A stretch of DNA of 64,000 nt from Tomocerus qinae (Eukaryota; Arthropoda; Collembola; Entomobryomorpha; Tomoceridae). The first letter of the stretch is position 1. Each line of letters begins with the position of its first letter. The notes under the pieces were generated by a model. That model ran no database searches. It saw nothing but the letters and a program-made list of their open reading frames with translations, and had not been told where the DNA came from. Below are positions 28,401 to 57,239 of this stretch, piece after piece. The position numbers were made by a program, and so were the translations under genes. The stretch is from the NCBI GenBank assembly GCA_020055645.1, contig CM034547.1, positions 50,284,909 through 50,348,908 on the forward strand, read 5' to 3'.

Positions 28401-31297
28401 ATTAGGGCCAAATGGTCGGCGTTCTACCAAAGTCGTAGTAATAGCAAAAATGTACCTCTCTACTACGTACGAGCGGATATAATGGATGCCTATCCCTCCG
28501 TCGATTTAAAGCTGCTAAAGGATATTTTAATACGTTCATTTTATGAAAATGGGGACTTTACGCTGAAAACATACAGGGTAACAAGCGTTAGCTCTCCAAA
28601 GGTGCCTAAAGTATGTAATGTACACTTGATAATACGCATTTTTGGAATTTAATTGTTATTAATTAGGGATTATGAGGTTGTGTATTATAAAGTGGTTATA
28701 AATTAGGTATAATCTTTAATATTTTGCAGGTGCGGTATTCGTTGCTGAATAGAAATAATAGAACTAATTGGCATTCAGAGATATTTACACGCCCATGTAT
28801 TATTGAAGATACAAAATCGGTTCGAAACCCTGTTCATTTATTTAAACAAATTTTTTCATAAGTATTGGTATTTTGCCTTGTGTTTGTTGAGCTTTAGTGA
28901 TTAGTGATGCATCCCAAAAAAGTTTGCTGTGTATAGGTTGTAGTCAAAGTATTATAAATTATAATAAAGAACACCCATTCGATAAGTTTCGATTGTATAA
29001 TACCTCAAGGACGTATTTAGGGATGGGCTTTACGGGCTGAAGCTCCCCCCACGAAATCCAAGAAAAAGGGAATTATTGGAAATCTAGCCCCCTCGGAAAC
29101 TCAGTTCTGCATACGTGCTTGTCTACCTACCCTACTTACTACCCACTACCCTGATATACTACCTATCAGGCACGTATCCAGAAATTTTGTCAAGGGGTGC
29201 GCAATAATGTCAAAAATGGGACATATTCGCGGGAAGCGCAAAAATTTTTTGTAATTTTGGGCCTATTTTGGGAAAAATCTTCTCTTTTTCTCAGATTTAG
29301 AGGGGGGCAGCGCCCCCTAAATCCCCGCCCCCTTCTGGATACGTGCTTGCTACCTATTATGATATGAAGATTAAGATATTATATACATAGTTGATAGTCT
29401 TTGATAGATATAAAATTTAATTTTGTTTATTTTGTTCTGTATTAGGCCAAGACCCTGAATGCCCAAGACATAATTTTACATTTAGTAAAGGCTTTAGAAC
29501 CAAGCGTATTAAGTTTGGGGCAGCATAAGTTTGAATTCGAAAATGGCCTTCCTCAGGTTAGCCAATTCACGCTAAATAAATTTATTGTGGAATTCTCATT
29601 TAGTATATTTATAAGCGATTTTTTTTACTCTTTTAGGGTTGGATTATATCTCCGTATTTATGTAATTTATACTATGGATGTATGGAAGAAATTCATTTGT
29701 CAGAATTTATCGGACGCCCAGGAGAATTATTTCTACGAAATGTAGATGATTATTTTTATGTTTCCTCAGATCCACATAGGATTAAAAAATTTTGCGAAAA
29801 AATGAAGAATGGAATCGAAGAGTATAATTGTAAATTAAATCTAACGAAATTTACAAGCAACGTTGATGTTTCTTCTACAGTGCGAATGCCTATGACAATT
29901 TGCGACTGGGTTTCTTTTTGTGGTTGGAAGTTCTGTTTAACAACTGGCCATGTCTGTAGGGATTTCTCGTCCTACAAAGGATTGGATATTTCCTCTGCTG
30001 TTTCGTTTAGAATGAGTGACAAGACTAACTCAGATTTGTAAGAGTTAATTTTGTTTTCTAAAATAACATTATTAAGAGTTCCAAATTCCAACTCTGGCCA
30101 TCATTACTATTTATAATTTACTACAACCCTGGGACAGGGTTACCAAATTCATTGTCAGTTTAGTTGCAGATGTTATTATTAATATGGACTCTGTATTCTA
30201 GATTACTTGTAGTCCATATCTGTATTAGACTGGACATCTAGTGAGTATGCAGATTTTCAAGTGAATTTGATGGCGGGATCCTTCGTACCATAAAGGTATT
30301 TACTAACTACTACTATTTTAGTGATGAATATCTTCATGGTACGAAGGATCCCGCCGTCAAATTCACTAAGATCTGCATACTCACTAAATGTCCAGTCTAA
30401 TACCGATATGGACTATTTCCAAAATTACAAGAGCTTATGACTACAATATTTAGTAAACTATAATTTTCTTTTAAAATGTAGATTTATAATGAGCCGAATG
30501 GGGACGGTGATACCACTGAGGCTCTCATCGTTATTATTTGATCCTGTTGTGAACTGCAGAAGAAGAATTATAATGAATATATTCGAAGCTGCTTTAATGT
30601 TTGCCTTTCGCTTCTACGCAATTTGTCGAGTTGTATATCCAAACTCAAAATTTGCTACTACAGGCACTCGAATAAATACTTTGACGTCTGCCGTTCACAA
30701 AGCCGCAATGACTGTTACGCGGTGGGTAATATTATGCAATTTGTGTTTTTAAGAATCTCGAACTTGCTGATTTCGGTGTCTATGTTTAGATCGAATTAGT
30801 GCAGTATGCAATATATATTCATTTTTATTTAATGAAATTTGAGTTACAAATAGTATAGTATGGGTAACTTGTAAACTAATCATGTGTTCAATTGGATTTT
30901 CAGGCACGTGGTGCGAGGAAATGAATATCTATATGCAAGCAGACCTGTACATCATTGTAATCTCGAAAATCATAAAGAGTCTTGTCAAAGGCTTTTTAAG
31001 TACCCACGATGTAAACTACAGATTTTACCCTCCGCTGAAGTGCCAATGTATACCTCCACACCAAAAGAAGATATTCCAGCTTCTTCAATTTCCCACCCTG
31101 AAGTAGTCTTCCTCGTGTATCATGCGTTTATACTAAAACTTTCTAAGCATTCAGGAATTTTTAAGGATTCATTGCTTCCCATACTTAAAAAGGTTCGTTC
31201 TAATCAGCGGGCTAAGTTTTCAGAGGGAAATTATAATTTTTTAATGGAGACCGTAGGTTGTAAAATGCCTGAATGCTTTTTAGCCATAAAAAAATAG
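25422..31297 (+). CDS. TERT: Telomerase reverse transcriptase
   Basis: TERT copies telomeric repeats from its RNA template. Eight coding exons: 25422-25617, 25830-28167, 28310-28610, 28730-28861, 29446-29556, 29637-30037, 30482-30721, 30904-31297, about 1370 codons. All junction phases agree. Motifs in order: a TEN-like region (residues about 75-165, FDKCILIFTIEPEIFLI); T/CP motif ILYNKSSWSKLPSSHF (about 457); QFP block SLHQEDCSWAKQ (about 725); motif 1 WLFRNYVLAFMKTSFYATE (about 755); motif 2 LRLLPKSNNGIRTL; motif A YYVRADIMDAYPSV (about 897, catalytic Asp); B' GLPQGWIISPYLCNLYYG across exons 5/6; motif C RNVDDYFYVS (about 1060, catalytic Asp pair); motif E SFCGWKF; then DFSSYKG and a thumb extension ending CKMPECFLAIKK. 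VDDYFYVSSDPH resembles Tribolium VDDYFFCSPHPH. Oddity: coding exon 4 ends in an in-frame TAA (28859-28861) directly before the best donor. Weaker in-phase donors lie upstream (after residues KS or NP). Either one of those is used, or this copy or assembly has a premature stop. An acceptor-like TTTTACAG just before the start suggests a 5' UTR exon. Confidence 0.93.
29006..29121. mobile_element. Candidate hAT-type MITE in TERT intron 4
   Basis: It begins CAAGGACGTAT and ends ATACGTGCTTG, an inverted pair with one change. The flanks do not form a good 8-base duplication, so the call is weaker than that for its neighbour at 29167. Confidence 0.45.
29167..29349. mobile_element. hAT-type MITE in TERT intron 4, perfect 8-bp target duplication
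   Basis: It begins CAGGCACGTATCCAGAA and ends TTCTGGATACGTGCTTG. It is flanked on both sides by CTACCTAT (29159-29166 and 29350-29357). CA-type ends with an 8-base duplication are the hAT signature. 183 bases, non-coding. Confidence 0.85.
30210..30415. mobile_element. Palindromic MITE in TERT intron 6
   Basis: The left arm TAGTCCATATCTGTATTAGA and the right arm TCTAATACCGATATGGACTA are near-perfect inverses, and the match extends about 90 bases inward (GGCGGGATCCTTCGTACCAT). The TA at both ends would fit a TA-targeting (Tc1/mariner-type) element. A half copy sits upstream of TERT at 25230. Confidence 0.75.
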
Positions 31298-31594: not shown

Positions 31595-32278
31595 TTACTT
31601 GGTAAGTTCTCCGCGGACTTGAGGAAAGCGTTCTCGAGTAGTATACCATTTAGTGCAATCTAATTCTCTGAGATCTCTTATCCACCATCCATAATTCATG
31701 TTATTGGAGATGGGAACACAGAAGCGCTGTTCCGTTCCTAAATTAAATGGATTTCTTTACTTTACAAATATTATACTTCTCGGAAGAGTCTGAACTCTGA
31801 ACTGAAGATCGATTAATCGTTGTAAAATTTTTATGAGGTAAAGACAATTAGAAAGCTATATACCAAAAGGATTCCTTGTGTGTCGTTTCTTTTGGAAGTA
31901 CAGACGATTAAAGCGTCCATAGTGGACTCCATCGACAAGTCCACTGTACACATCAATGTTTCTGAAATTTTCTGCTAGTCTTCCATAGTCAATTTGCTCT
32001 TCGTCATCGGCATTCGGGTTTTTTGTCGGAGGGAGAAACTGCTCCAGTTTTGGTCTTCCATAATTAGCTTCACGGCAGCTAGGATTGACATATTCACGAA
32101 TCGGCTGTTGATATCCATGAAGTGTGTGTCCCATGAAAAACAATCGATTGTTCAAATGTGCATCAGCCTCTTTGGCAATTTCTTGTTTGGTTACTCCGCA
32201 GTAATTTCCGAAACGAATCATTTTACACTTTCCAGATGCTACTCCAGGGGTATTGCACATTGCACCTGATATCATCAT
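31595..32278 (-). CDS. Unrecognised small protein, two exons
   Basis: I do not recognise this protein. Exon 1 is 32278-31864 and exon 2 is 31737-31595, joined by a 126-base GT-AG intron in matching phase, giving about 185 residues. It starts MMISGAMCNTPGVASGKCKM and includes HLNNRLFFMGHTLHGYQQPI, YGRLAENFRNIDVYSGLVDG and, across the junction, NPFGTEQRFCVPISNNMNY, ending KWYTTRERFPQVRGELTK. It has no signal peptide or membrane segment. It is rich in Tyr, Asn, Arg and Trp, and the short aromatic motifs (NYGWW, HYGRFNR) are in the style of small ciliary or sperm microtubule inner proteins. That is only an impression. It converges on TERT, with stops about 300 bases apart. Further upstream exons are possible. 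Confidence 0.6.
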
Positions 32279-32844
32279 TTTGATAACTTGAAGTAGATGG
32301 AATCGGAATAATTTACTCAGGCACAAAAGGTTGACGATTTGTATATTTTATAACTTGCCGAACAACAGGCGCAAGATTCATGAATACATTATAATAAATT
32401 CATTCACGAATGAATGGAATAATATTATATTTTATTAATCTCCACTCCATCATCGTCCATCAACTATCAACTACTTTATGCAAATGCACGAGGAGTAACC
32501 ATGGGAATCCACGATTCCAAAATGTAAGTCCTATAAAAATCGGACTTATCGGAGGAATGGATTTTTGATATCGTTGCTCCATGATCGCTGTTCAAAAAGA
32601 AAGTGAATATCAGTTTTAGTTTTTATACAATGTTGATTTTTTTGCACCATTTGCCATTTAAAGCAAAGATATCAAAAATCCATCCGCCCTCGTGTGTTCT
32701 TTGATAGTCCAGGATTCCAAAAATGTAAGTCCCATCAAAATCGACCTTATTCTCCGGGAGTAATTAAGCCAGAAGTAAAACATTTTTTAACATGCATTTA
32801 GAGTCCCGGTTGCTATGAAGGCTTCCGTGGTGAGGTGAGCCTCC

Positions 32845-35699: not shown

Positions 35700-38600
35700 G
35701 GAAGTTTAAATTAAAATTAGCTAGTAGTTAAGGTGATTTTCAAAAATTTGACTCCGACTTTTGATTCTCTTATTATGAAATAATAAGAATAGAATACAAT
35801 AGGTATTGTCAGTTTCAATTGCGTGTTCAAAAAGTGTACATGTACCTGGCCGTTTAGTGAACATAGGAAGGTATTTGACCATTAAAGAATTTAATTGCTC
35901 TTTTTGGGGCGCTTCTAAATACTCAGGTGGCATAAGGGATGGTGGTAATGGCATGGCTTCATAAACCATGCACACATCATGCTGTTTGATAGTTTCAGCT
36001 TGAGCTAAAATAGAAGCTGGAGTATCTGTTTTATGTAAGTCATTTATAGTTAAGAGTGAGTATATTAAAGAGTCACTGATTTTAGGATTGAGTTCCAATT
36101 TAGTATTAGAATTGGAACTGTCAGTTAAATTGTCATTGTCCTCACACGTATTTACAGAATTGGTGTGAGAATTTTTATCTACCCTCTGTGGAGAGATAAT
36201 AGTATTTACATGTGTGCCAATGGTAGGAACAAAAAGACTGTCGAATGGAATTAATTTCTGTTTCTCTATTCCTACTGTCCACCCACCTAATCCTATATGC
36301 ACGCCAATTAAAGTGGGGCCAAGAAAGTCTCTGCCTAAAAGTAAGTCTTTGGACATGTTAGGTAGTAGAGTAAGATTTTGCTTTCTCTTCCCTGCTGCAT
36401 ACGTAATAGTTAAGTCTACAGCTTCAAAGGTTTGGCATGATCCAGTGATTAGGTTAAGTTGCTTAGAGTTGGTTTTAGTTTTAATGTTACGTTCATGCAA
36501 AAGTTTAATGATTTTGTCTTCCGCGAGAGACAATGAAGAACAAGAGTCAAGGTGAGCAAGAAATTGCACACCTAAAATTTTTACAAACATAGTAGGTTCC
36601 TTTTCAATGATGGAAGCTAGAAAATTGGAATGCTCTATGTTAATGGCTTCCCCCCGAGCTATAACTGTTTTGGAGAGCTCGGGCGAGGCGAGTTTAAAGT
36701 ACTACGATTGCCTGTGTTTGGGTTCGGATTGTTATCAGAACCGCCAGAATTTCTCCGTTCTCTAGTAGTCTCGTTAAAAGTTTGACCATGATTACGCGGA
36801 GACTGGTTCTCAACGTTTCTTTGCGGAGAATTCTGGTTAAAATTTCTAGGAGGTGAAGTTGGATAGTTGTACCTAGGAGGAGTGGTTTGATTAGGTACTC
36901 CATTGTTTGCAAAATTGTTACTTCTGTCGGTGGTTTGTGAAGGAGGAACTTGGAATCGTACCTCTCTTTTTTGGCTTGCATCGCTGTGATGAAAGCTAAA
37001 TGCATCCACAGCAGAACTATGCAATTTTGGGACTGTCCTAGTGTCATCTGTCCACCCTAAAGCGTTAGTCTCAACTTTTCCTATTTCTCTAGGTTTACTA
37101 ATTGGCTTCCATGCAAGTGCCGGCTCTAAGTTACCTGTAACTGGTGGAGGCTTGTATGAGCGAGAGTATTTAAGTAACTCTTGTGCTTCTTGCGCGCATT
37201 GCTTTAGTTGACGCAAATTATTAATAGTCTTTCCCTGAAGTGCCAATCTATACTCAGGGTGCATTTGACGTAATACGCGTCTAACAATATCTGCCTCTGT
37301 ATAGTTATCACCTCTCCTCTCGTAGTAGTCAGCAATGACTCTTATGAATGATGAGAGTGTTTCTGTGCTTCCTTGGGTTCTGTTCTCCAATTCTCTTTGC
37401 AGATCATCCCTATAACCTACAGACTGGAACTCTAAACGAAAGCGCCTTTTGAAATCCTCAAAATTTTCAAAATCTCCCTCATACCGAAACCAATTGAAGG
37501 CTTCTTCAATAAGGGCCAAGGGTACTACATACCTCAATAGGTCAGCCTCCGTATATCCGATAATGGAACGATATTTTTCTAGTTCCACTAGAAAATCAAA
37601 AGGAGTTTTTGAGTCTATAAAACCTTTATAAGACGGAATGGAGATATGCGCTGATTTGAGATGATGAGTTGGTAATCCCTGTCCATGTACATTAGGCTGC
37701 ATATTCCGATTAGCATGAATTTCTTCATTTCTTTGTCTATGCTGATAATCATTTTGTGGTGGTGGTAAGCGATGATCATGGACATGACAAGTGCTGGAAC
37801 TTGCTGATACATTACGTGGAGGCATATTAGACTGATTGTCTTGAGGTGGCTCAGATCTACGTTAATTTGGAACTACTGCAGCTCGTTGTGCATGTACTTG
37901 CGCTTGCATATTCTGCATTAAAATGTTCCTAAGAGCATTTACCTGTGAGTCCTGCATTTCCCTAATTGACGCTTGTAAAGCCTGCTGATTATGCAACATT
38001 GCAACTTGCATAAACTGCTGGTTTCTTTGCATAGCACGAATAAAATTTTCTTGCATTTGGTTTAACATACTTTGCATGATATTACTAGTTACATTTATGT
38101 TTGCACTAGCTGTATTAGATGACAATTGTTCTTGTCTATCTAACAAATGCTGCTCAACTTGAACCCGCCGACTAGGCGTCGGAGGATTTGGATGTGAAAA
38201 TCCTGAAGCTGATGCCTGACCTATAGGTTCACACTCAAACAAAAGATCTTGGGCAGTTCGTTGACCACCAATTGGAGGAGAGACATAAGGTGGTGGTGGA
38301 TCTAATCCAGCTACGTTAGTAGGAATAGGACTATGTAAAACTCTTGCAGCTGCATTTGGTTCGGGATCTATACTTGATTCCTCTGTACTTGCAGCACCTC
38401 GTCTACCACGCCTTGGGTTCACCATTATGAGTAGTAATTACTGGTATTGTTTTATTTAAATGAGTTTGAAACTGAGAGAGATGGAAAGAATTATTACTTT
38501 GCCCCAAATGTGCTCTCTCTGAAAAATATTATTTTACTTTGCCACGAGTTGGGAATGAAAAATGTAATTTTGAGAAATTGAACTGATAAAATATGAAATA

Positions 38601-40221: not shown

Positions 40222-42811
40222 CGTTTTTAGATTTAGATTAGATTTATTCACTGTTATCAAATGATAATTGCCGACATAGACAGTATTAGGATTTATACAA
40301 CAACAATAATAATAATAAAATTAATAAACATTAGCAATTATTGGAAAACAATAGAATGTCTTATAAGAAAGATGAATAGAAACTATCACTTTAAATTAAT
40401 TTTGTGATAATTTAAATGATTGTGAATGATTTTACAAGAACCTCGAAGAACGGAAACAACTATATTTTTTGTAAGATCTTTAGGAAATGAAAATCGTTTC
40501 CTGAAATCCTCGAAGAAAGATGTAATTTTTCCACGGGCCCCAATCATTATACCAATTGTTTCTATTTCTTTTAAACTGTATTTCCTTTTGAGATAAGGAA
40601 TGCATGGATCATAGATTAACTTTTTATTTAAGTGAGTATCTTTCGGTTGATGTTCATGGTTTTCAAATTGTATTGTAGGATCGACAATATATCCTTTGTC
40701 ACCGTGAAAGGCAATCATATCAATTCTTCTATTAGAACCGTCCTCAGCATTACAATGAACTTCTTCGAAAACTGAAAAACCTTTTTTCTAAATGAATTAG
40801 CTATCATTGTTCTAACTTCATGATGTCTTGAGTTGCGTAATAGAGAACCGTGATCGCAAAATCCCAATATATGACCCAAAGTTTCAATCTCGTTACAGGA
40901 ATCAATCCTACAACGGTTATACTGAGACCTGCCTGGCACGACTCTAGCTGCAACGACGTTAGCTGTCATTTTTATAGATGTTGTCCTTTCAGAATATGAT
41001 AGCTGTTCTTTGTTGAACATCCAAATGTTTGCATAAGTACATTGATTAAATAATGCAACTCCTTTTCCTTTTTGAGGTAGCAGCTTCCAAGATTCGAAGT
41101 CTCGCAATTTTAGCTCTGATCTCATGTCTTGAGTAACTTTCTTTTTATATTCTGATTCTCTAATCTTGAATTTCTGGTAGATGTTTTGGATATCCTGACT
41201 TGTAAATCCTAATCTGCTGATACAAAGATCTTTTTCTTTTTTGTAATTTCTGCAGGCAGATACAAAAAGATTCTTAATGCTTTCCAGAATACAAGTGATG
41301 TTAAAGGATTGAAGATAGGCTTCCCAGTATGCACACGTAATGCCTAGTCCTTTAAACTTTCTCGGAGAGTACAGCATATGATTATTAGCATCATGAGGAA
41401 TAGAAAGGATCTCATTCACTGTGCTCCTTATAGAATTGTCTATTTTCTTCGTGAAAGACTGGTTTAGCTTGTAAATAGGGGTAGTCTGGAGAAAATAAGT
41501 CAGAATCGGCCAGATATATTGATTTAAAATATTAATCTTTTGGTCTGATTGCAACATAGGAGTACTAGTTAAGATATTGAGCTTGTCGTTCAATTTCTTC
41601 AAAATAGAATTTTCATTAATAACTATTTCATCTTCAAATGTTACACCTAGGTATTTTATTTGTTCGTTGTGTTTTAATGCTTTAATTTTCAATCCATTGC
41701 TTAATAGTAAATCCTGTTCAGATAAGAATCCATTTTCCAAAATTATTGCGGTGGATTTACTATGGTTTATCTTATATCCAGTTTCCAACAATAAACTTTC
41801 GATCATAGAGAACAAAGTAGAAGCCGATTCTCTTGAATTACCAAATGGAGCTAGATCATCCACAAAACCCAATAAAGAAACTTTTGGTAGGTTTTTTTGA
41901 ATTTGAAATCCAAATTTATCCGCAACTTCCGGGTTCGTAATTTCGTTAAATACGTAATTAATAGACACATTAAATACGAGTGGCGAAAGTGAAGAGCCTT
42001 GGAAAATCCCTCGATTCAAAAAAATGGGTTCAGAAATTTTTGAATTGGAATAAATCCTTGTAAAGTTGTTAGTTTGAAGAGTAAGAGTAAGATTTCTTAA
42101 TACATCAGGAATTGGTAGCTCCAAAAGGGATCTTTCTATATGCAAGTGTCCTGTCGTATCATACGCTTGATGTCCATCCAGAATTAAAGGAACAAAAGTT
42201 AATTTATCCTTTTTAGCCTTTTGAAGACAGCCATTTAGAATGGAAGAATTGATGTGACAACCTGGCTCATGAATGAAACCCTTTTGAAAACTGTTAAATG
42301 TGACAAAGTTTCGTAGTTTCTTCTCAATGACTTTTTCTATAACTCTTCTAATTACGGAGGAAATTGAAATAGGTCTCCAATTACAAACATCATTAATATC
42401 ACCTTTCTTTTTAAAGACCAGGATAGTCCTTGCTTCTTTTTGACAATCAGGAATTACATTATGACGTAACATAATATTAATTAAGGTAGTAATAACTGAT
42501 TCGCACTTAGTAGATTTAATAGTCTTCGGTAATATTCCGTCAGGCCCAGTCGAAGAATCATATTTGATACTTCTGATAGCAGATTGTACCTCATTTTCAA
42601 AAACCATTGAGTTGAAAGACTTATTAATGTTATGTTGATCTACATAATCAATAGTAGAGTAATGATTGCGCACAAGATTGTTTGGAGTGCTCCAACGATT
42701 GACAAAACTAGAATGTAAGTTTTCAATAGCAATAGGACATTTAACACTATCTCCTTTGAATATTGAGTCCACACATCTCTTCCTTTGGTTGAAATAGTTA
42801 TATTGCATCAA
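40222..42811 (-). mobile_element. R2-like non-LTR retrotransposon with restriction-like endonuclease, 5' truncated
   Basis: The reading direction is minus. The main frame (42811-40715, 698 codons) holds a reverse transcriptase: TGPDGILPKTIKS, NWRPISISSVIRRVIEK, motif A LDGHQAYDTTGH, GIFQGSSLSPLVFN and motif C GFVDDLAPFG. A CCHC knuckle follows (CRIDSCNEIETLGHILGFC). The endonuclease continues in the next frame as RRIDMIAFHGDKGYIVDPTI then IGIMIGARGKITSFFEDFRK. The change of frame falls in an A run near 40785 and looks like a one-base indel. The two frames overlap by ATGA. Motif A and C residues differ from the usual LDLAKAFDT/ADDLAL, so the copy is probably inactive. The 3' UTR ends in an AATCTAAATCT-type tail near 40222-40262. 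The N-terminal DNA-binding fingers are missing. Confidence 0.8.
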
Positions 42812-43434
42812 TTCATAATTATACTTATTATACTATATATTATATTATACTATCTGGCTTTGCAACATCTACTAATCGAAAAAAAATTCCACCAATCAGA
42901 ATCGTTTTTGAGTGTAATCGGAATTTGAAAAAGTATACGAAAGCTCTGAAGCAACAGTAGGTTCTTTTTCAAAGTAAAAGCTCAAGTAAGGTTAATAAAA
43001 AGGCAATTTTTTTGAATATGTACAGAGTGCAGATTGTTAATAACCATTACCCAATTTTATATGTTTTTCACATTCCTGCCCCGAAACTGGAAACAGCCTA
43101 GCGATCATATCCAAAATGACTTTCGTACAGGGCAGTAGGGCGTGACATAGCTTTCACAGGTTAAAATCAATTTTAACACACACCGGACGGGCGACAAATC
43201 TAGGTTGAAGCCTCTCCTATCAAGACAGATAGTCGGGTATTAGTGCGATTATATTATAGAATAATAAATCAAAACACGGCATTTCATTTCAAAATTTTAT
43301 GATTTTCATAAACATTTACAGGAGGAATATTTATTGCAACATTTGATTTCTGCATTACAGTAGTTTGATCAGTATATCTATACTATATTATAATTTCCGG
43401 GAGTTTGTATTTATGTCTGTTAGTGTGTCCACCC
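42812..43434. other. Non-coding stretch beyond the 5' end of the R2-like element
   Basis: I see no supported gene or repeat here. It ends where the 31-bp minisatellite begins. Confidence 0.5.
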
Positions 43435-45611: not shown

Positions 45612-45939
45612 TGGATTTCACGATGCTAGTTAGGGTGTAAGGCTAACTCGTATGTAGCTTCAAACTACCAGATTTTTGCACGAAAAAAGAACCACTAGTT
45701 TTAACACTTAAAACTAGTTTATTCAACATAAATTTTCATACAATTTTACTATTACAACCACTTTTCTACTGCTTTCCGAGACAGAGAGAAAAGTTGCGTG
45801 TCCATCCGATCAGTACGAGATGACAACTGATGATTTTAGACATTTCGACTAGACTACTATGAATAAATCAAACAACAATTTATAAGATATTAACAACTAT
45901 GGTAACGATAATTATTATGCATGAATTTCCTCCGATCCA
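45612..45939 (-). repeat. BEL/Pao 3' LTR
   Basis: A 328-base direct repeat of 51509-51836, with no difference found by eye. The end of the pol reading frame lies inside it. Confidence 0.92.
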
Positions 45940-48900
45940 TCCTCCTCCTCGTGAAGAACTAGTGGTTCTTTCACCATCGTCTTCAAAATATCCAGTACGC
46001 AGAGTTTAGAGGCTGGTCTTCGGAATGTTCCTGTTGGAGTTTTTACATCTGCCACTCGGACTTGTCCATCTTTCCCGGGATACACTTTCACAACCATTCC
46101 GCGAGGCCAATGACTCCGTTCTAGATTACCATCTGCGATAATGACTAAATCTCCTACTTTCACTGGATCTTTCTTCAGATGCCATTTTGTCCGCTTGGTG
46201 AGAGTAGGTAGATACTCGCGAATCCAACGTTGCCAGAATTTATCCGCTAGGATTTGAGCTTGTCTCCATTGTTTTCTTGAACAAAGATCCGTATCATCGA
46301 ACTTTCCTGGAAGTAGCATTCCACTAGATGATCCTAGGAGAAAATGATTTGGCGTCAGAGCTTCTGGGTCATCAGGGTCCATTGACACGTGAGTCAACGG
46401 GCGGGAGTTAACTATGTGTTCTGTTTCCAACAAGAGAGTATGAAGAGTTTCTTCACGTGGAAATCTTTCTTTAAGACATTCTCGGAGGGAGACTTTCACA
46501 GATTTTACTAAACTTTCAAAGGCTCCTCCGAAATTCGGTGCAGCAGGTGGATTGAAGATCCATTCAATACCTTTGCTTGCTAAATTAGAGATTATTTCCG
46601 TTTGATTCAAATCCAGGAGAGACTTCTTTAGTTCGTTATTGGCTCCGTGGAAATTTGTTCCGTTGTCGGAGAATATTTTCTCCGGATGTCCTCTTCTAGA
46701 TATAAATCTTCTGATCGCCATGATGGCAGAATCAGTAGAAAGACTTGCTGCTATCTCCAAGTGGATAGCTCGAGTAGACATACATGTAAACAATACAATC
46801 CATCTCTTTTCGTGTCTCCTCCCAATTGTGACAGTCAACGGTCCCATATAGTCAACACCGGTGATCACAAAGGGTCTTGCTTGTCTGGTCACACGAATAT
46901 CAGGCAGGGGTCCCATTTCAGGAGTTTCAGGCTTAGCTCTTCTGATTTTGCATATGACACAGTCATGGAATGACTTTTTTACTGCTGCTCTAAGTCCTGA
47001 TATCCAGAATCTTTGTCGTAACTCGTTACAAATTAGTTCCTGTCCATGGTGCCGTGCCAATGTGTGAAAATGACTTATTATTAACTTTGTAATTCCATGC
47101 TTTCCGTTCAAAATGACTGGAAACTTCACATCAGAATCCACTGCTGGAGATTTGCATAATCTTCCGTTTACACGCAGCAGTCCATCCTTGTCGAGGAAGG
47201 GTGACAGTTTTAGTAGACTACTTGATTTTTGTAGCTTCTTTCCTAACTTGAGAAGTTCAATTTCTGAGCCGTAGCTTTCCAATTGACTTTGCTTCCAGAG
47301 TAATTTTTCACTAATTGTATATTCAAAGGGAGCTAGTTCTGAATTTGACATTTTACCAGTGTCCTTTATTTTCGCGATACAGTTGTTCACAAAACGTAGC
47401 ATCCATGCAGTAGACCGTACTAATTTCATCCATGATCTGACATTAGCGTAATTTGGTACAATGTGAGTAAATTCGCCGATAGCATTTACAAATTCGGCTT
47501 TCAGTTCGATATCTTCAGAAACTTCATTTTCCATTGTATTTTTCGGCCATTCGATTTCTGGCAGCTTTAGAAATTCGGGTCCATTCAGCCATCGACTTTT
47601 CTCCGAAAAATCCGAAAGTTTGGAGTTTCTTGTGGCCTCATCCGAAACATTCTCAGCTGTGGGAATCCAGCTCCACTGAGAAACATCTGTCGTTTCCAGT
47701 ATCTCTCCAATCCTCACAGCTACAAATGGCTTATATTGTCTCGCATCACTTTTAATCCAACTCAGAACAGTTTTAGAATCAGACCAAAAATAATATGCGT
47801 TGATTTCTATTTCATGTCCGTTTTTCAGAGTTTCAGCTAATCTCGTGGCCATCAATGCAGCTTGAAGTTCCAGTCGTGGAATAGACATGGGTTTCAAGGG
47901 TGCTACCCGAGTTTTCGACATCACAAATGTTACAAAGATATTTTCAGGTGTCTTGACTCTTAAGTAGGCGACTGCTGCAAAGGCTTTCTCGCTAGAGTCA
48001 CAGAATGTGTGTAACTGAATTTCCTGTGCATTTTCCATGTTTGAACAATAACATCTAGGAATTTTCATTTCTTTGACATTTTGCAATTCAGATATCCACA
48101 CAATCCATTTGTCATAAATTATATCTGAGACCTCGTCATCCCATCCGAGTCCTGTTCTCCAGATATCTTGCATCAATATTTTTGCTTTTACAGTATAGTG
48201 AGCCAGAAAGCCAAGAGGGTCATACATTGACATGACAAGCCTAAGAACTTCTCGTTTTGTCGGCCTCTTCCTTCCTGTCACTATCTCACTGCTTACTTTA
48301 CTGAATTTGCATTGAAAGAAAAAGTAATCTGAATTAGGATTCCATTGTAATCCCAATACTCTTTCCGTAGGCATATCAGATTCCAAATTCAAATCCTTAT
48401 CTTCGATACAGCGAAGATCTTTGGGAATTTTCTGTAAAACTGCTTTGGAGCTGCATGTCCAGTTACGAATTTCGAATCCTCCCATTTTATGAACCAGTAT
48501 GACTTCTTGCATTATTTTTATTGCACTTTCTTCATCATGTGCAGAGTCCAAGTAGTCATCCACGTAATGCCGCGTTGTGATTGCTTTTACTGCATCTGGA
48601 AATTGTTCTTGAAATTCTAGAGCATTTCTATTTTTGATTTCTTGTGCCAGGCACGGTGAACAGGTGGCTCCAAAGGTCATCACGGGAACGACATATGTGT
48701 CTGGGGTTCGGCTCCTGTCCCTCCCCCGCCAAAGAAATCTTTGGGCTGCCAGATCCTCCTCTCTGATGTTCACCTGGTGAAACATCTCCTTAATATCGGC
48801 AGTAAACCCTATTTTCTTCTGCCGAAACTTAAACAAAACTGCAATTAGAGAGCACAAATTGTCAGGACCTTGTAACAAATGATCATTGAGGCTTGATCCA

Positions 48901-51508
48901 TGACTCTTGGCTGCCGCATCGAATACAAAGCGTAATTTTCCGGGTTTATTCGGATTAAATACTCCGAAATGAGGCAGGTACCACGTTTTACCGTTTTCAA
49001 CAGCAGCTTCCTGCGGACTCAGCTTTCTAGCGTAACCTTTCTGTTCATATTCTGTAATTTTCTCTAGGTAGAGCTTAGCAAAATTAGGATCAGCATCCAT
49101 TTTCTTCTCCATGCAGCGGAGTCTGCGGAATGCCATTGATTTACTTTCTGGAAGATTAACAACATCTTCCTTCCACAAGAGAGCTGTTTCCCATCGATCA
49201 GCAACTCTTTTTGAATATTTGTCGACAATATTCATACATCTTTCATCTTGCTTAGATCTCAGAGGTTTGTTACATACTTTTACACCAAATGCTTCTGTGC
49301 TGAATGATTCTTTCACCAATCTGTGTAGTTCATCATCATGACAGAGATGATTTACATGTGCATCTACTCGGCCGCTAAGGTGTGACGAATTTCCATGTAT
49401 TGTCCATCCTAGTCGAGTTCTCGATGCACACGGTCCGTTCGGAGGTCCCTCGATGATCTCCAACGGGTTGATTAAATGCGGATGATCTTGACCGATCAAA
49501 ATAGTCGGTTTTACATTTCGCAGATAAACTGCAGGAATATTCTTTAAATGGCTCCACTTTTCAGAGAGTCTCTTCCCATTTATTGTTTGAATAGGCAAAT
49601 CTAGCTTATCCACAGTCTTGACATTCTGCAATGCAAATGACTTCTTTTCTGCACCGATAACATCAAAATTGACTAAATAAGAATTTTTGATTTGCGTTGA
49701 CATGTTAGTTGCTCCTTATAGATGGAGACAGTGAGGAATTCCAGTCAAATTCAACTTCTTGGCTATCCAATCTTCCATCAGAGTTATTGTAGATCCGTCA
49801 TCTAGAAATGCATACGTAGAAACTTCTTTTCCGTTACTTTTCAGAGTAACTGGAATTACTTTAAGTAATATGCTATTTTCTGTATGTGCAATGTGTGATA
49901 CAGATGCAGATTCTTCAGTTTTTACTACATTTTGTCTTCGAGATTTTTTGTGAAGAAGATGGTGATGAAACTTGTCACATCCGTCGATTTCACAACCTTT
50001 TTTGTCCGGGCAATCCTCAATTCGGTGCCCAGGCTTAAGGCACCCGTAGCATACCTTCTTATCTATCACGATTTTCCAACGACTATGAATATTTTCTTTC
50101 TTGAAATCTCTACATGTTGATAGAACGTGATTTTTCACACAAAGGACACATAATTTTTCACCACAATTTTCACTTTGCGTAATAACATGTATCTTATCCT
50201 TCCTCGGTTGAACAAAATTTCCTTTCTGGGGTTCGTTCTTTTTCCAGTCGGAAAATGGCTGAGGAGTTGTGACAAAACTGGCGGCTTTGGCTAAGGGTTT
50301 CAACCAGGTGGCTAAATCCTTAAGATTTTCTTCTTCCTCCAAAGTCTGAACATATCCACCCCACATTAGTTTCAAGTTGGGTGGCAACTTTTCCACAAGT
50401 TGATCCAACAGTGAAGGATTACTCAAATATCTTTTACAATTAAGTGATTCGATGGTAGAAACTAAATTATTAATTGCATTAGAGAAATCTATAAGCATTT
50501 CTGGTTTTCTCTCATCCAGATTAGCTAAATTCATTGCTTTAGATTGTAGACTGTTAATGATCATCTTCGGTCTTCCGAAATTAACTTCTAGCGTTTCTAT
50601 AACTTGATTTAAATTTTCAGGAGTGAACATCATGCACTGAACAGCTTCTAGTGCTTTTCCTTTTAGGCATTTCAGGAAACGATCCATATTCTCCGAGTTG
50701 GAGTAGCTTCCAGCTTCAGTCGAATTCCTAAATCTCGCAATAAAATTCGGCCACTCCGTGGGGTTTCCATTGAAGATGGGCAAATCCTTTGAAATTGACT
50801 GTCTTGCCAAGAATTTCTGCATACCATCTCCGGTGCATGAGGAATTTGTAGCCAATTTTTCAAACACATTAGAAAGTACTTTTGTCAATTGATCAATAGG
50901 AGTATCTTCCTTCATACCTTCCTGACCATTGATCCATTCCGTGACTTTCTGTTCAGGATTTGTAGTGCCATGGAGATTTGAAGTATCTGCTTGTACCCTC
51001 TCCGCCTCCTCGACGAAGTTTTCTCCATCATCACTGAGATCTTGCGATTGATCATCATCAATTTCTTCGGCTATTTTCTCCTTTTCGATTGCCAGTCGTT
51101 TTTCAATTAGGAGCCTTTCCCTCTCCGCTTTCTCGTCGGCGAGTCGGGCCTTCTCCTCGTCCGCCTTCAGTTCAGCCTCTAATAGACGGCGGCGACTAGT
51201 ACTTGCGATGGATGCTTTGCTTTTAGTAGATTTTTTAGTTTTGCAGGACGAAAACTTTTCTTCGGAGTATCCGCTTCCTCCAGGGGTCCGAAAAAGAGAG
51301 TGTATGACTGAGATTCCTTCCTCCACCCCCTCCTGGTTTTCCTGGCGAGTTTTCCTAGGATTCCTTGGCAGCTCAGGGTAAATTTCGTCGAAATTTTCCG
51401 GGAGTTTCTCGCCGTGGATCCTCTTGCTCCTCCGGGCGTCTCCATACGTTTTATGATTTTTTTCAGACATTATTTCCAAGAGCTTGTTCAGTAGGTTCGA
51501 AGGACCAT

Positions 51509-51836
51509 TGGATTTCACGATGCTAGTTAGGGTGTAAGGCTAACTCGTATGTAGCTTCAAACTACCAGATTTTTGCACGAAAAAAGAACCACTAGTTTTA
51601 ACACTTAAAACTAGTTTATTCAACATAAATTTTCATACAATTTTACTATTACAACCACTTTTCTACTGCTTTCCGAGACAGAGAGAAAAGTTGCGTGTCC
51701 ATCCGATCAGTACGAGATGACAACTGATGATTTTAGACATTTCGACTAGACTACTATGAATAAATCAAACAACAATTTATAAGATATTAACAACTATGGT
51801 AACGATAATTATTATGCATGAATTTCCTCCGATCCA
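51509..51836 (-). repeat. BEL/Pao 5' LTR
   Basis: Direct repeat of 45612-45939. It is followed, in element orientation, by the primer-binding site. The first in-frame methionine of gag overlaps its inner edge. Confidence 0.92.
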
Positions 51837-52556: not shown

Positions 52557-55011
52557 ATGGTAAGAAGAAATTAAATCTACATACTTTTACAAATTATGAT
52601 TTATTGAATAAATTCAACTTAGTTAATTTTATTAAGAAATAAATTATCAGTAAATGTTTTATATCCATCAATGAAATGTTTGACTATTTTCCACTCTTTC
52701 TTTTAGGCGTTTCGAAAGTTTGTAGAGGCTGGCCGCGTGGCTTTTATTGCCGACGGACCAGAGGAAGGAAAACTATGCGCTATAGTTAATATCATCGACC
52801 AAAATCGAGTAATATGTTTTAACTAATTTATCGTTTATTATTTATCATTTGGTAACTATTTAACATTTAATAGAAATAACCATTTATTTAACCAACCAAA
52901 GTTTATTGTTCTTGTTTATCATATCATTCATAGCTTATATTATTGTCTTGTTGCTCATTTCTTTTAGCAATAATCAGATAATTCTATCCAATTTTGATTA
53001 AGCTTATTCAGTTCACAGCTTTAATTATATAAATCAATCGAATAACGATGAATGAATGAGGTCCGAGCAGAGGTTGGATGTTGTTTAAAGTCAATGTTGA
53101 ATGTCAGTGTCAATAAGGACAAAGGATTAGGGATAGGGACATAACTTTAAACTTAGTAACTTGAAGTGCTATTGATAGTGTTTATTATATTGTTATGAAG
53201 TAATTAAGTTTCAAAAATTGAACAGTGAACAGTAAATATTATAGTAAGTTGATAGTGTACCAGATTTCTGTAAATGGTAAAAAGTTAAGGATTAAGTAAG
53301 GAATAGCTTGAAAGAATATCAAATCGAATAGTTAATAGTTAGTATTAAGAATATAGCTAGGAATTATTATATAGCTACTGTACTATCTTATTATTATTCT
53401 TAATTTGGCAAGCAGTAGCAATAGCAATAATTGTACTGGCATGAGTCATATCATGTGACGTGTAATATTTCATGATGTTACTGATAAAGTTATAGCTATA
53501 TAAATTAAAAGCAGTGTTAATATACGAGCTTAGTGGCCAATCATTAATCTAATTATCTTTGATTACTACCAATTAATGTTAATTGTGCATGGTTTACTAT
53601 AAGTCATAAGTTAATTTTATAAAAATATTGATGATGATCCGAATTATAGGAATTGCCGGCTGACCGATACATGAAGCCATTTGCTATCTGAAATATTTTC
53701 AATGGTGGTTAAAATGAATGGCCCAGTTATAAACTAGGTAGTCTTTAATTGAAAAATGAAAAGTTTATTTTCATTTTTAGGTTCTTATCGATGGGCCATG
53801 CTCTGGAGTAGCACGTCAAGAACTCTCATTAAAACGATTGCATTTGACGACGTTCGGCTTGAAATATCCTTTCTCCGCATCTACCAGAGTAGTACGGAAA
53901 GCCTGGACAGAAAATAAAATCGACGAGAAATGGAAAAACTCTAGATGGGCTCAGAGAGTAGAAGCTCGTAAAACGGTATTTTTAGTTTATAATTTTTAAA
54001 CAGTATTTAGCCTCTAAGCGATAATATACATTTACCGTATTAATCGATTAAGTTCCCCAGAGGAACTCATTTTTTGGTGAAAAATGGTTTTTTGGTGTTT
54101 TATGTATTAGCGACGAATTTTATTCAAAATTCTGTAAATTTTAATAAAACCATTTCTTACCAATTTTAGGTGGTTGTAAATAGCATTAAATACCAGTAAA
54201 AACCGCTTACCAATGGTAAGTGGTAACTGGTATTTTGTACACTGGTTGGCACAAATGCACTGACATCACTGACTGGGTACAGGCTAAGTGCAGATTCACT
54301 GAATTGATTCTTATACATTTAATTTAGAATTTTGGGGTGGGGAACTATTTCGATAGGGGGAATTAAACATTTAAAGAGCCATATTTCCACCAATTTATTC
54401 ATTTAGTTACCCAACTGGGGAATTATTGCGATATGGGGAACTAAATCGATTATACGGTAACTATAATAATAATCAATAATGAGAAGTATCTGTTCTTTAT
54501 AAAGTAAAATTTTGTGGTTCTAAAGATTAAAGCTATACTGCTGTTATTGTAAAGCGGATTTATTTGGTTAAATGTGTAATTTATGATGATCCATTAGATA
54601 GGAATTGCCGGCTGATCGACATATGAAGCCACTTGCTATTCTGAAATTACACACATACCTATGCATTTATGTTTGTTGGTGGATGTTTACTGTTTCCCGT
54701 GAATTACCTTGTAGAAAAAATGCATAATTTTATTTTAGTCCTCTTTGAAAGTGCAAAGCTACGGATTAAATTGGACTTTTTTAGCGTTTTTAAAAAGTTG
54801 ATCTTATTTTTAATTTGACATTTTACAGAGAGCCAACTTATCCGACTTTGATCGGTTCAAATTAAATGGAGCCCGTCGTACCCGTAACAAGATTCGTCGT
54901 AATGTTTATTTGCAATTGCTTTTAAATGCGAAAAAGAAGGGTGCCCTTAATCCACCGAAAACAAGGTATGGAAGAAAGAAGGCCTCTAAAGGACCCGCTA
55001 AGAAGAAGTAA
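52557..55011 (+). CDS. RpL14: Large-subunit ribosomal protein eL14
   Basis: A structural protein of the 60S ribosomal subunit. Four coding exons: 52557-52559 (the ATG alone), 52707-52808, 53781-53975, 54829-55011. The phases are all zero and the product is 160 residues. It starts [20 protein letters not shown], and [14 protein letters not shown] matches the KOW-like fold of eL14. Exon 3 gives [20 protein letters not shown] and exon 4 gives [20 protein letters not shown], with a Lys-rich tail ending KGPAKKK. A start codon placed alone on its exon at a splice junction fits other animal ribosomal protein genes. A pyrimidine-rich stretch just upstream may be the TOP start region. Introns 2 and 3 each carry a box C/D snoRNA candidate. 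A poly(A) signal follows at 55054-55059. Confidence 0.95.
53622..53699 (+). ncRNA. Box C/D snoRNA candidate in RpL14 intron 2
   Basis: A terminal stem (AAAATATT at 53622-53629 pairing with AATATTTT at 53692-53699) encloses box C TGATGA (53632-53637), box D' CTGA in GGCTGACC, box C' TGAAG and box D CTGA (53688-53691). The guide before D' is ATAGGAATTGCCGG. GGAATTGCCG can pair with the conserved 18S rRNA stretch CGGUAAUUCC with one G-U pair. The guide before D (AGCCATTTGC) can pair with 18S GCGAAUGGCU with one G-U pair. The length of 78 nt and a ribosomal-protein host intron are typical. The targets are inference. Confidence 0.85.
54574..54652 (+). ncRNA. Second box C/D snoRNA candidate in RpL14 intron 3 (paralogue)
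   Basis: The stem GTGTAATT (54574-54581) pairs with AATTACAC (54645-54652). Box C is TGATGA (54584-54589), followed by D' CTGA, C' TGAAG, and box D CTGA (54641-54644). The guide before D' (ATAGGAATTGCCGG) is identical to that of the intron 2 copy. The guide before D differs by a C for T and one extra base next to box D. The two stems differ in sequence but both pair, which argues for selection on structure. Confidence 0.85.
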
Positions 55012-55360: not shown

Positions 55361-57223
55361 TTAAGTTTTATTAGAATTAGCTTTATTAGTTTCACTTTTA
55401 CTACTAGAACATGGTTGATTTATGAAACTACTATCATTACTGTTATCGCTATCTGTAGTCGTACGGTCACCAGTATTATTTCCTATAGCTATCTTTCTGT
55501 CCCGCATCTGAAGTAATATTTGGCTCTCAGGGTGTTCAGGTTGATGTGGCCAGTTGACAAACTTGCTGTCACTCTGAGTCCAAACACCTACATTTCTCAA
55601 ATCGGGTTTACTAGGGTTCAGTCCTAAACCTGTTCCAATGGTTCCCTCACTAATTGCCATCTGTTTCTTAGCCTCTAAATCACCGATTACTTCTAAATCA
55701 TCAGTCGGTCCAATTGGAGAGCGGAGTGTAAACAAAATGGACACATCTTTACCTAAACGAGGATTAGTATCTTCTAAAAATCTTATCCATGAAACAACAG
55801 AATCTTTCGAAGAGCTTCCAGTAGCACAAACAGCAAGAATAACTCCGTCTTCCTGCTCATGAACAGTAGGAACGGTCGCAACTTCTTTTTCAATGTAATC
55901 TTCTTCAAACAAAACTTTCAGATCGCCGACATCGTTGGGATCTTTAGATTGTACAGCAGGTTTTTGCGGCTCAGCTCTCAAAATGAAGTAATTGATACAA
56001 CTGTGGCCAAGCCACACTCTGAAAGCTCCCTCGACGTAAATTGGGCGACCAGGTGGGTGTTTTTCAATGAGATCTTGCTGGTCTGGACTTTGACCACTAA
56101 CAATCCAAGTAAGATCCACAGAATCTTCTAAATCTGCAGCATCATATATAGTAATTTTTGTTTTCATATCAGCCGAAGTTATTCGTTGAATTGCAAGTTT
56201 GGCAAGTTCTAAACAATCATCTGGTGGAGGAGAAGGAATGGGCCATGGACTCAAATTCTTAAATTTTGGCATCCAATATTGCATTCTCATAACTTTTCGC
56301 ATAGGAAAAGACAATGAACCAAATATATTAGTCAACATTGTGTGTGTTTCAGAATCTGGCATTACTGCGTACTCTTCCATTTGTTCCAGCAGATCAACAG
56401 CACACTGTTGCTGTTTAGGATAGTGCATGAATTCTACTTGAAGCCTATTCGTAGCTATCATTTTACCTTTAGGAAATACATCTATGAGTTTTTTATAAGA
56501 TTCTAAATCTCTGTGTATACCAAAATTTTTCATTTGATTTAAAGCTGAATAAATAAACTCAACGTGACCTCGTAAGCGAATATCTCGATCATTAAAAATA
56601 TCCACTGCAATAAAAAAGTTTTCCTTATTTTTTTCTTTAATATCTCGGAAAAAATCTAAAGGGACCATTGCCTTTTTGTTAATTTTCCTCTCCTGACTCT
56701 CTCTCCAATCTTTGTGTCTTTCTTCTTCTGGACCCAAGTCTTCATGTTCAGGGTGATCTTTAGATTTTGATTTGTCTTCTGTCTTTTTTACAGTAATAAT
56801 GGTAACACCTTTTCTGTGTTTAGAAGATAACACTACTGGTAAACCTTTAGTGTCCAACTCACTTTCAACATCTTGTTCTTTAGATTGATCATTTCCCAAT
56901 TCTGTTCTGACGCTTTCGCTATCATGACTATTGCTCACATTCGGTACCAGTGTGTCTTTAAAAATTGGAACATTTTTTGGAACTTGTGACTCCGCGTCTA
57001 CACTAGCTCTGAATCTTTGCACATCTGACCTCTGTTTTGTACTTGAATCTTTGATTTTACCAACAGCACCTTCCATGCCTTTACGTTTTTCAACTCCTTG
57101 CCGAATAGTACCAACAATTTTTGCTACAATTCCTTGTTTCCCTCCACTATCATTAGATGAATAAAATCTACCATGATAAGCAAGACTAATTCGAAGCAAT
57201 TTCCTTGAAAACATAGTTGCCAT
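55361..57223 (-). CDS. ECSIT: ECSIT, mitochondrial complex I assembly and Toll-signalling adaptor
   Basis: ECSIT works in mitochondrial complex I assembly (with NDUFAF1 and ACAD9) and, in mammals, bridges TRAF6 in Toll signalling. The open frame is 620 codons with no intron. The start MATMFSRKLLRISLAYHGRF is a basic amphipathic leader suited to mitochondrial import. After a low-complexity charged stretch (residues about 60-185), the PPR-like ECSIT core runs from RGHVEFIYSALNQMKNFGI through LLEQMEEYAVMPDSETHTML and SFPMRKVMRMQYWMPKF to GQSPDQQDLIEKHPPGRPIY and VEGAFRVWLGHSCINYFILR, then ILAVCATGSSSKDSVVSWIR. Human ECSIT is shorter (about 430 residues) and its gene has introns. The extra length here is in the linker and the Asn/Ser-rich tail. 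Acceptor-like TTTGCAG just upstream of the start suggests a 5' UTR intron. It converges with RpL14 (stops 350 bases apart). Confidence 0.92.
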   Translation of the reverse strand: MATMFSRKLLRISLAYHGRFYSSNDSGGKQGIVAKIVGTIRQGVEKRKGMEGAVGKIKDSSTKQRSDVQRFRASVDAESQVPKNVPIFKDTLVPNVSNSHDSESVRTELGNDQSKEQDVESELDTKGLPVVLSSKHRKGVTIITVKKTEDKSKSKDHPEHEDLGPEEERHKDWRESQERKINKKAMVPLDFFRDIKEKNKENFFIAVDIFNDRDIRLRGHVEFIYSALNQMKNFGIHRDLESYKKLIDVFPKGKMIATNRLQVEFMHYPKQQQCAVDLLEQMEEYAVMPDSETHTMLTNIFGSLSFPMRKVMRMQYWMPKFKNLSPWPIPSPPPDDCLELAKLAIQRITSADMKTKITIYDAADLEDSVDLTWIVSGQSPDQQDLIEKHPPGRPIYVEGAFRVWLGHSCINYFILRAEPQKPAVQSKDPNDVGDLKVLFEEDYIEKEVATVPTVHEQEDGVILAVCATGSSSKDSVVSWIRFLEDTNPRLGKDVSILFTLRSPIGPTDDLEVIGDLEAKKQMAISEGTIGTGLGLNPSKPDLRNVGVWTQSDSKFVNWPHQPEHPESQILLQMRDRKIAIGNNTGDRTTTDSDNSNDSSFINQPCSSSKSETNKANSNKT

Positions 57224-57239
57224 TTCAGTTATTTCCTAT

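Follow-up and report, generated by a model that had tools for sequence, protein, structure and literature searches.

Paralogous putative box C/D snoRNAs in consecutive RpL14 introns of Tomocerus qinae, with a D' guide predicted to address 18S Um578/Um627 and a possible second target in 28S rRNA

Two consecutive introns of the ribosomal protein gene RpL14 of the collembolan Tomocerus qinae carry short units with box C/D motifs, which raises the question of whether these units are methylation guides and, if so, which rRNA nucleotide they would address. The locus was analyzed within a window of 64,000 nucleotides, the whole stretch of DNA considered here. RpL14 (eL14) occupies 52557..55011 on the + strand. 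Its four coding segments (52557-52559, 52707-52808, 53781-53975 and 54829-55011), joined across GT..AG introns, give an intact ORF of 160 aa, and the protein matches the eL14 chains of PDB with a best E of 2.1e-45. Intron 1 (52560-52706, GT..AG) is followed by intron 2 (52809..53780, GTAATA...TTTTAG), which carries unit 1, and by intron 3 (53976..54828, GTATTT...TTACAG), which carries unit 2, all on the + strand. About 350 bases past the RpL14 stop codon, on the opposite strand, lies the ECSIT gene (55361-57235, -; ECSIT_N E 1.1e-72, ECSIT_C E 1.2e-37).

Unit 1 is 78 nt long (53622..53699, +) and unit 2 is 79 nt long (54574..54652, +). An earlier sequence-only reading of this DNA had described a paralogous box C/D pair in consecutive RpL14 introns, and its coordinates, lengths and host gene were correct. 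In unit 1 the C box ATGATGA (53631..53637) is followed by the D' guide ATAGGAATTGCCGG (53646..53659), the D' box CTGA (53660..53663), the C' box ATGAAGC (53671..53677) and the D box CTGA (53688..53691). Unit 2 has the same elements, all on the + strand as in unit 1: the C box ATGATGA at 54583..54589, the same guide ATAGGAATTGCCGG at 54598..54611, the D' box CTGA at 54612..54615, the C' box ATGAAGC at 54623..54629 and the D box CTGA at 54641..54644. Both units therefore combine the RUGAUGA C box, the CUGA D box and the closing terminal stem that define box C/D RNAs. Of the internal boxes, the D' box is an exact CUGA in both units, and the C' box, assigned by eye around TGAAG (53672-53676 and 54624-54628), is degenerate, AUGAAGC matching five of the seven letters.

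The relation between the two units was determined by alignment and by a direct-repeat search of the gene. They share 84% identity over a 61-nt ungapped core, and the mean column identity of the whole-unit alignment is also 84%. The 14-nt guide and the CTGA D' box, 18 nt together, are identical in both units, confirming the frozen guide reported earlier and extending it to the D' box, whereas the five letters directly 5' of the guide all differ. The terminal stems, said in the same reading to differ and still pair, do so: unit 1 is closed by AAAATATT/AATATTTT, 8 bp at 53622-53629/53692-53699, and unit 2 by TGTGTAATT/AATTACACA, which reaches 9 bp at 54573-54581/54645-54653. Both stems pair perfectly, and among the eight innermost pairs the five that changed between the units are compensated in every case. 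The only other repeat common to introns 2 and 3 is a single AT-rich pair of 23 nt at 78% identity, indicating that the likeness of the units does not come from freshly copied introns.

Both strands of the 64 kb were scanned for RTGATGA...CTGA enclosed by a terminal stem of 5 bp or longer, a pattern that weaker boxes escape; units 1 and 2 were the only two structures obtained. The same scan on 60 first-order Markov simulations of the window gave a mean of 0.22 structures, falling to 0.017 per window under the stricter demand of 7 bp or longer for the stem together with an inner CTGA. Searched with up to three mismatches, the guide has six matches in the window against 3.55 expected, and is exact only in the two units. 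That the units are a chance likeness, or decayed duplicates of snoRNAs that yield no product, would agree with the degenerate C' box. Nevertheless, the fully covarying stems, the identical guide beside a diverged flank, the two structures found against the simulated mean and the lack of any other repeat between the introns beyond the 23-nt pair make this highly improbable. Units 1 and 2 look like paralogous intron-encoded box C/D snoRNAs and real methylation guides. In IMG/VR, a search with the 18-mer of guide and D' box returned one contig (L001), with no snoRNA context in a stretch of 301 bases there, and a gapped pattern of C box plus guide returned none.

No Rfam family matched the window at gathering thresholds. 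In a relaxed scan of the window, which gave 12 rows with the other families of the snoR77Y clan masked by overlap, snoR77Y (RF01178) matched unit 2 with 38.3 bits (E 4.4e-5) and unit 1 with 38.1 bits (E 4.9e-5), the whole model being covered; its gathering score of 52 bits was not reached by either. SNORD49 (RF00277) matched unit 1 with 28.3 bits (E 7e-4) and unit 2 with 25.3 bits (E 4.5e-3), below its gathering score of 37 bits. Since these scores lie under the curated limits, the units are not filed as formal members of either family. Judged from the sequence, they probably work like, and descend from, snoRNAs of the snoR77Y type, the SNORD49 type or both; the two families belong to separate Rfam clans, CL00057 and CL00062. 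The rows for SNORD79 and snoZ266, which overlap unit 2, were taken as general C/D likeness, and those for mir-9418, mir-759, FTX_4, Telomerase-cil, ceN80 and STnc540 were set aside, their scores being far under the cut-offs.

To place the guide on rRNA, we scanned 8535 bases, from the 18S start, of a eukaryotic rDNA contig of another species that is a contaminant in a bacterial MAG (L012). Its first 8000 bases (as L004) match the Rfam eukaryotic SSU, 5.8S and LSU models and three group I introns. The best place of the D' guide in this rDNA is 18S GCGGUAAUUCCAGC, where positions 2-11 pair with no mismatch and with a G-U at position 5. Guide position 5, counted from the D' box, faces the 18S U in the 530-loop stretch CGGUAAUUCC. 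This is the pairing of 10 bp with one G-U that the sequence-only reading had proposed, and it is confirmed here. The target U has number 578, counting from the start of 18S, in three of the seven contaminant contigs whose 18S 5' end was located (eight were examined) and 545, 551, 572 or 577 in the others; the motif was the search key, so its presence in them is by construction.

The same reading knew of no 2'-O-methyl site at this place and raised a new or lineage-specific guide. The first point is not supported: PMC8817022 assigns 18S Um578 to yeast snR77, Um627 to human HBII-135 and Um580 to Arabidopsis snoR77Y, with Um571 as the Dictyostelium position, and the Neurospora equivalent of yeast Um578 is given as Um575 (PMC2780460). 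With the predicted site already published from yeast to human, and common to these two, Arabidopsis and Dictyostelium, a new or lineage-specific mark is unsupported. The reading is thus corrected to a predicted mark common to yeast, human, plant and amoeba, at the decoding centre: yeast snR77 18S-578 is assigned to the A site there (PMC8307265), and the snR77 family appears in a table, with the traced families set in bold, that belongs to a section on which modifications guide families of the last common eukaryotic ancestor targeted (PMC3511168). In a fly preprint with 18 annotated 18S sites, the sections consulted do not name an equivalent of Um578/Um627 (PMC13228274). Passages of PMC3412847, PMC8522698, PMC8393311 and PMC6171561 add nothing on this site or on the 28S site described below; the last employs snR77 purely as a donor sequence and mentions a yeast strain that lacks the SNR72-78 cluster.

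The complementarity score of the D' guide was reached somewhere in the rDNA by 47 of 200 shuffled guides; it is unremarkable, and the raw score was not used alone as evidence. When 3000 shuffled guides were placed on the rDNA, the 18S site was in the top two for one, the 28S site described below for one, and both for none. The D side was rejected as a guide. The C'-to-D spacers, 10 nt and 11 nt in the two units, are short for a guide and out of register with each other, indicating that only the D' side looks like one, and the best rRNA sites of the D side differ between the units. Within the L012 18S, the D side of unit 2 does pair fairly strongly at one place (score 24.5 vs 23.5 for D'), in a stretch that we take to be poorly conserved across eukaryotes. 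The eukaryotic 18S motif that served as search key is present in nine contigs filed under bacterial genomes (L002-L010, L012). L004 is filed as a Thermodesulfobacteriota MAG, yet by Rfam it holds eukaryotic SSU, 5.8S and LSU rRNA with three group I introns, indicating contamination. IMG/VR searches with 18S and 28S probes gave no matches.

We infer that the RpL14-intron units are expressed, assembled into snoRNPs and active in methylation. The RpL14 pre-mRNA would be spliced and each unit then trimmed to its terminal stem; the trimmed units would join the fibrillarin snoRNP, and the common D' guide would pair with 18S CGGUAAUUCC and direct a 2'-O-methyl to the U that faces guide position 5. 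In yeast and human this nucleotide is Um578 and Um627, the known site of snR77/SNORD65. That the units are paralogous intronic C/D snoRNAs whose D' guide directs this mark is the reading we favour, with moderate confidence. It is supported by two complete units, the sole pair in the window by the scan used, with perfect stems of unlike sequence, and by the 18S site being the top rDNA place of the guide, a site in the top two for only one of the 3000 shuffles. The snR77-type snoRNAs of Neurospora and chicken likewise use the D' side (PMC2780460, PMC2653536). Like snR77, SNORD65 (HBII-135) and snoR77Y, the RpL14-intron units share the predicted target nucleotide, a guide on the D' side, the core GGAAUU-CCG and a match to the whole snoR77Y model. 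They differ from them in having G for A at guide position 5, an AUA rather than an extended 18S match upstream of their core, RpL14 as host and a score below gathering. Several points speak against directing of the 18S mark: the Rfam scores are under gathering (38 vs 52), the methylated nucleotide would face a G-U pair where the snoR77Y consensus has A-U, SNORD49, with a different target, also matches the units, and the scanned rRNA is from another species. In archaeal guides, a G-U pair at the methylated nucleotide may lower methylation.

The second-best rDNA place of the guide, overlooked in the earlier note, is 28S UCGGCUCUUCCUAU, where 12 of the 14 positions are paired, among them a Watson-Crick G-C at the target position, and 6 and 7 are mismatched. 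We take this stretch, which the SNORD49 consensus guide matches, to contain C4426. SNORD49A/B are reported to guide 28S Cm4426 (PMC9941101, where the site is numbered Cm4456 and 4426 is added in brackets), and U49 is listed with Cm4426 and Cm2409 (PMC3511168). The units could therefore be U49 (SNORD49) orthologues that guide 28S Cm4426 only, the 18S pairing being a by-product of the likeness between CGGUAAUUCC and CGGCUCUUCC. In agreement with this, SNORD49 matches both units at the E values given above, and 12 of the 14 guide letters equal its consensus, among them the AUA of positions 12-14; these three pair with 28S, whereas with 18S only U13 does, by G-U. The units also share with SNORD49/U49 the use of the D' side and the two intronic copies, and a paper on fly RpL14 has Enerly et al. 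2003, on the U49 snoRNA gene, among its references (PMC4028297). On the other hand, the guide has U for the consensus G at position 7, which makes the second 28S mismatch and fits 18S, and G for U at position 1, and the units score below the SNORD49 gathering limit. The adjacent mismatches at 6 and 7 break the criterion of PMC8817022, which allows one mismatch, with a looser view cited alongside that allows a few. The 18S pairing has no mismatch, and snoR77Y scores above SNORD49, a rough guide only as the models differ. We regard a U49 orthologue restricted to 28S as unlikely.

The duplex energies of the guides place the RpL14-intron guide between the two families. For 18S and 28S respectively, they were -13.3 and -18.6 kcal/mol for the SNORD49 consensus, -18.7 and -7.4 kcal/mol for the snoR77Y consensus, and -16.6 and -16.2 kcal/mol for the RpL14-intron guide (-16.1 with a shorter 28S string), which is balanced between the two duplexes. 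Guide positions 6-7 fit 18S only and positions 1, 12 and 14 fit 28S only; at position 5 no base but G could pair with the 18S U as well as with the 28S C. Of the 42 single changes to the guide, all but two make the weaker duplex less stable. The G at position 5 and the energy balance would suit one guide with two targets. We suggest, tentatively and as something short of probable, that one D' guide serves both 18S Um578/Um627 and 28S Cm4426, sites that elsewhere fall to the separate families snR77/SNORD65 and SNORD49, either as a compromise or as a relic of the common ancestor of both families, with two copies to supply both. Against it, the G at position 5 and the AUA are also expected as leftovers of a U49 ancestor, and neither fit is perfect, with a G-U at the 18S target and two mismatches in 28S. 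Among literature titles and abstract openings covering both families, none states a shared guide. If true, one guide for both subunits would link families kept in separate Rfam clans, CL00057 and CL00062, and would be a testable case of guide families splitting or merging. With the site and the host arrangement already known, this possible second target in 28S is the point of special interest.

Since both duplexes depart from the ideal, either at the catalytic position or in the core, the units might also be expressed C/D snoRNAs that methylate neither site and have another role, such as assisting rRNA folding or that of an orphan snoRNA. C/D snoRNAs without a methylation role exist, snR4 and snR45 guiding acetylation (PMC5464676). 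The D' box and the +5 spacing are nevertheless intact, and the two best rRNA sites of the guide both carry published marks, a combination of top-two places that none of the 3000 shuffles gave; we consider such a role very unlikely.

The fly snoRNA genes in RpL14 are presumably those named U49 at 66D. The Drosophila gene, at 66D8, is described as carrying two intronic snoRNAs (PMC4028297), and the units share with these the host gene and the count. RpL14 is among the host genes of snoRNAs expressed in S2 cells (PMC13228274), and 27 fly ribosomal-protein genes have snoRNA-hosting introns (PMC2246290). By analogy with the two intronic snoRNAs of fly RpL14, the arrangement may be old in insects. 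Both guide types also occur together elsewhere: the chicken snR77-type and U49-type snoRNAs lie in introns 4 and 2 of one host transcript, both using the 5' (D') side (PMC2653536), and a figure in PMC9622897 places the human SNORD65 and SNORD49A/B at the SNHG29 locus.

Intron 3 of RpL14 also contains inverted repeats within 54027-54465, a 19-nt pair at 95% identity (54041-54059/54434-54452) and an outer pair of 14 nt at 86% (54027-54040/54452-54465). They resemble the termini of a small non-autonomous DNA transposon, about 110 bases upstream of unit 2; with up to three mismatches allowed, the window has a single occurrence of the right end.

Elsewhere in the window, pieces of a telomerase reverse transcriptase gene lie at 25814-30041 (+), where ORF 25814-28168 matches Telomerase_RBD (E 4.5e-17) and 29637-30038 contains a reverse-transcriptase stretch (RVT_1 E 6.9e-6, under the cut-off); the part between them at 28299-28649 had no Pfam match and is TERT-like by eye. 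A BEL/Pao-type retrotransposon occupies 45915-51539 (-), its ORF 45918-49715 carrying Pao peptidase, reverse transcriptase, integrase zinc-binding and DUF5641 domains and its ORF 49716-51539 being gag-like by eye. A LINE-like reverse transcriptase was found at 40715-42832 (-; RVT_1 E 3.7e-26), and the ORFs at 35721-38437 (-) resemble LTR retrotransposon gag and protease by eye. A single ORF at 31859-32347 (-) matches the sperm microtubule inner protein SPMIP11 marginally, at 26.6 bits vs a cut-off of 25.9.
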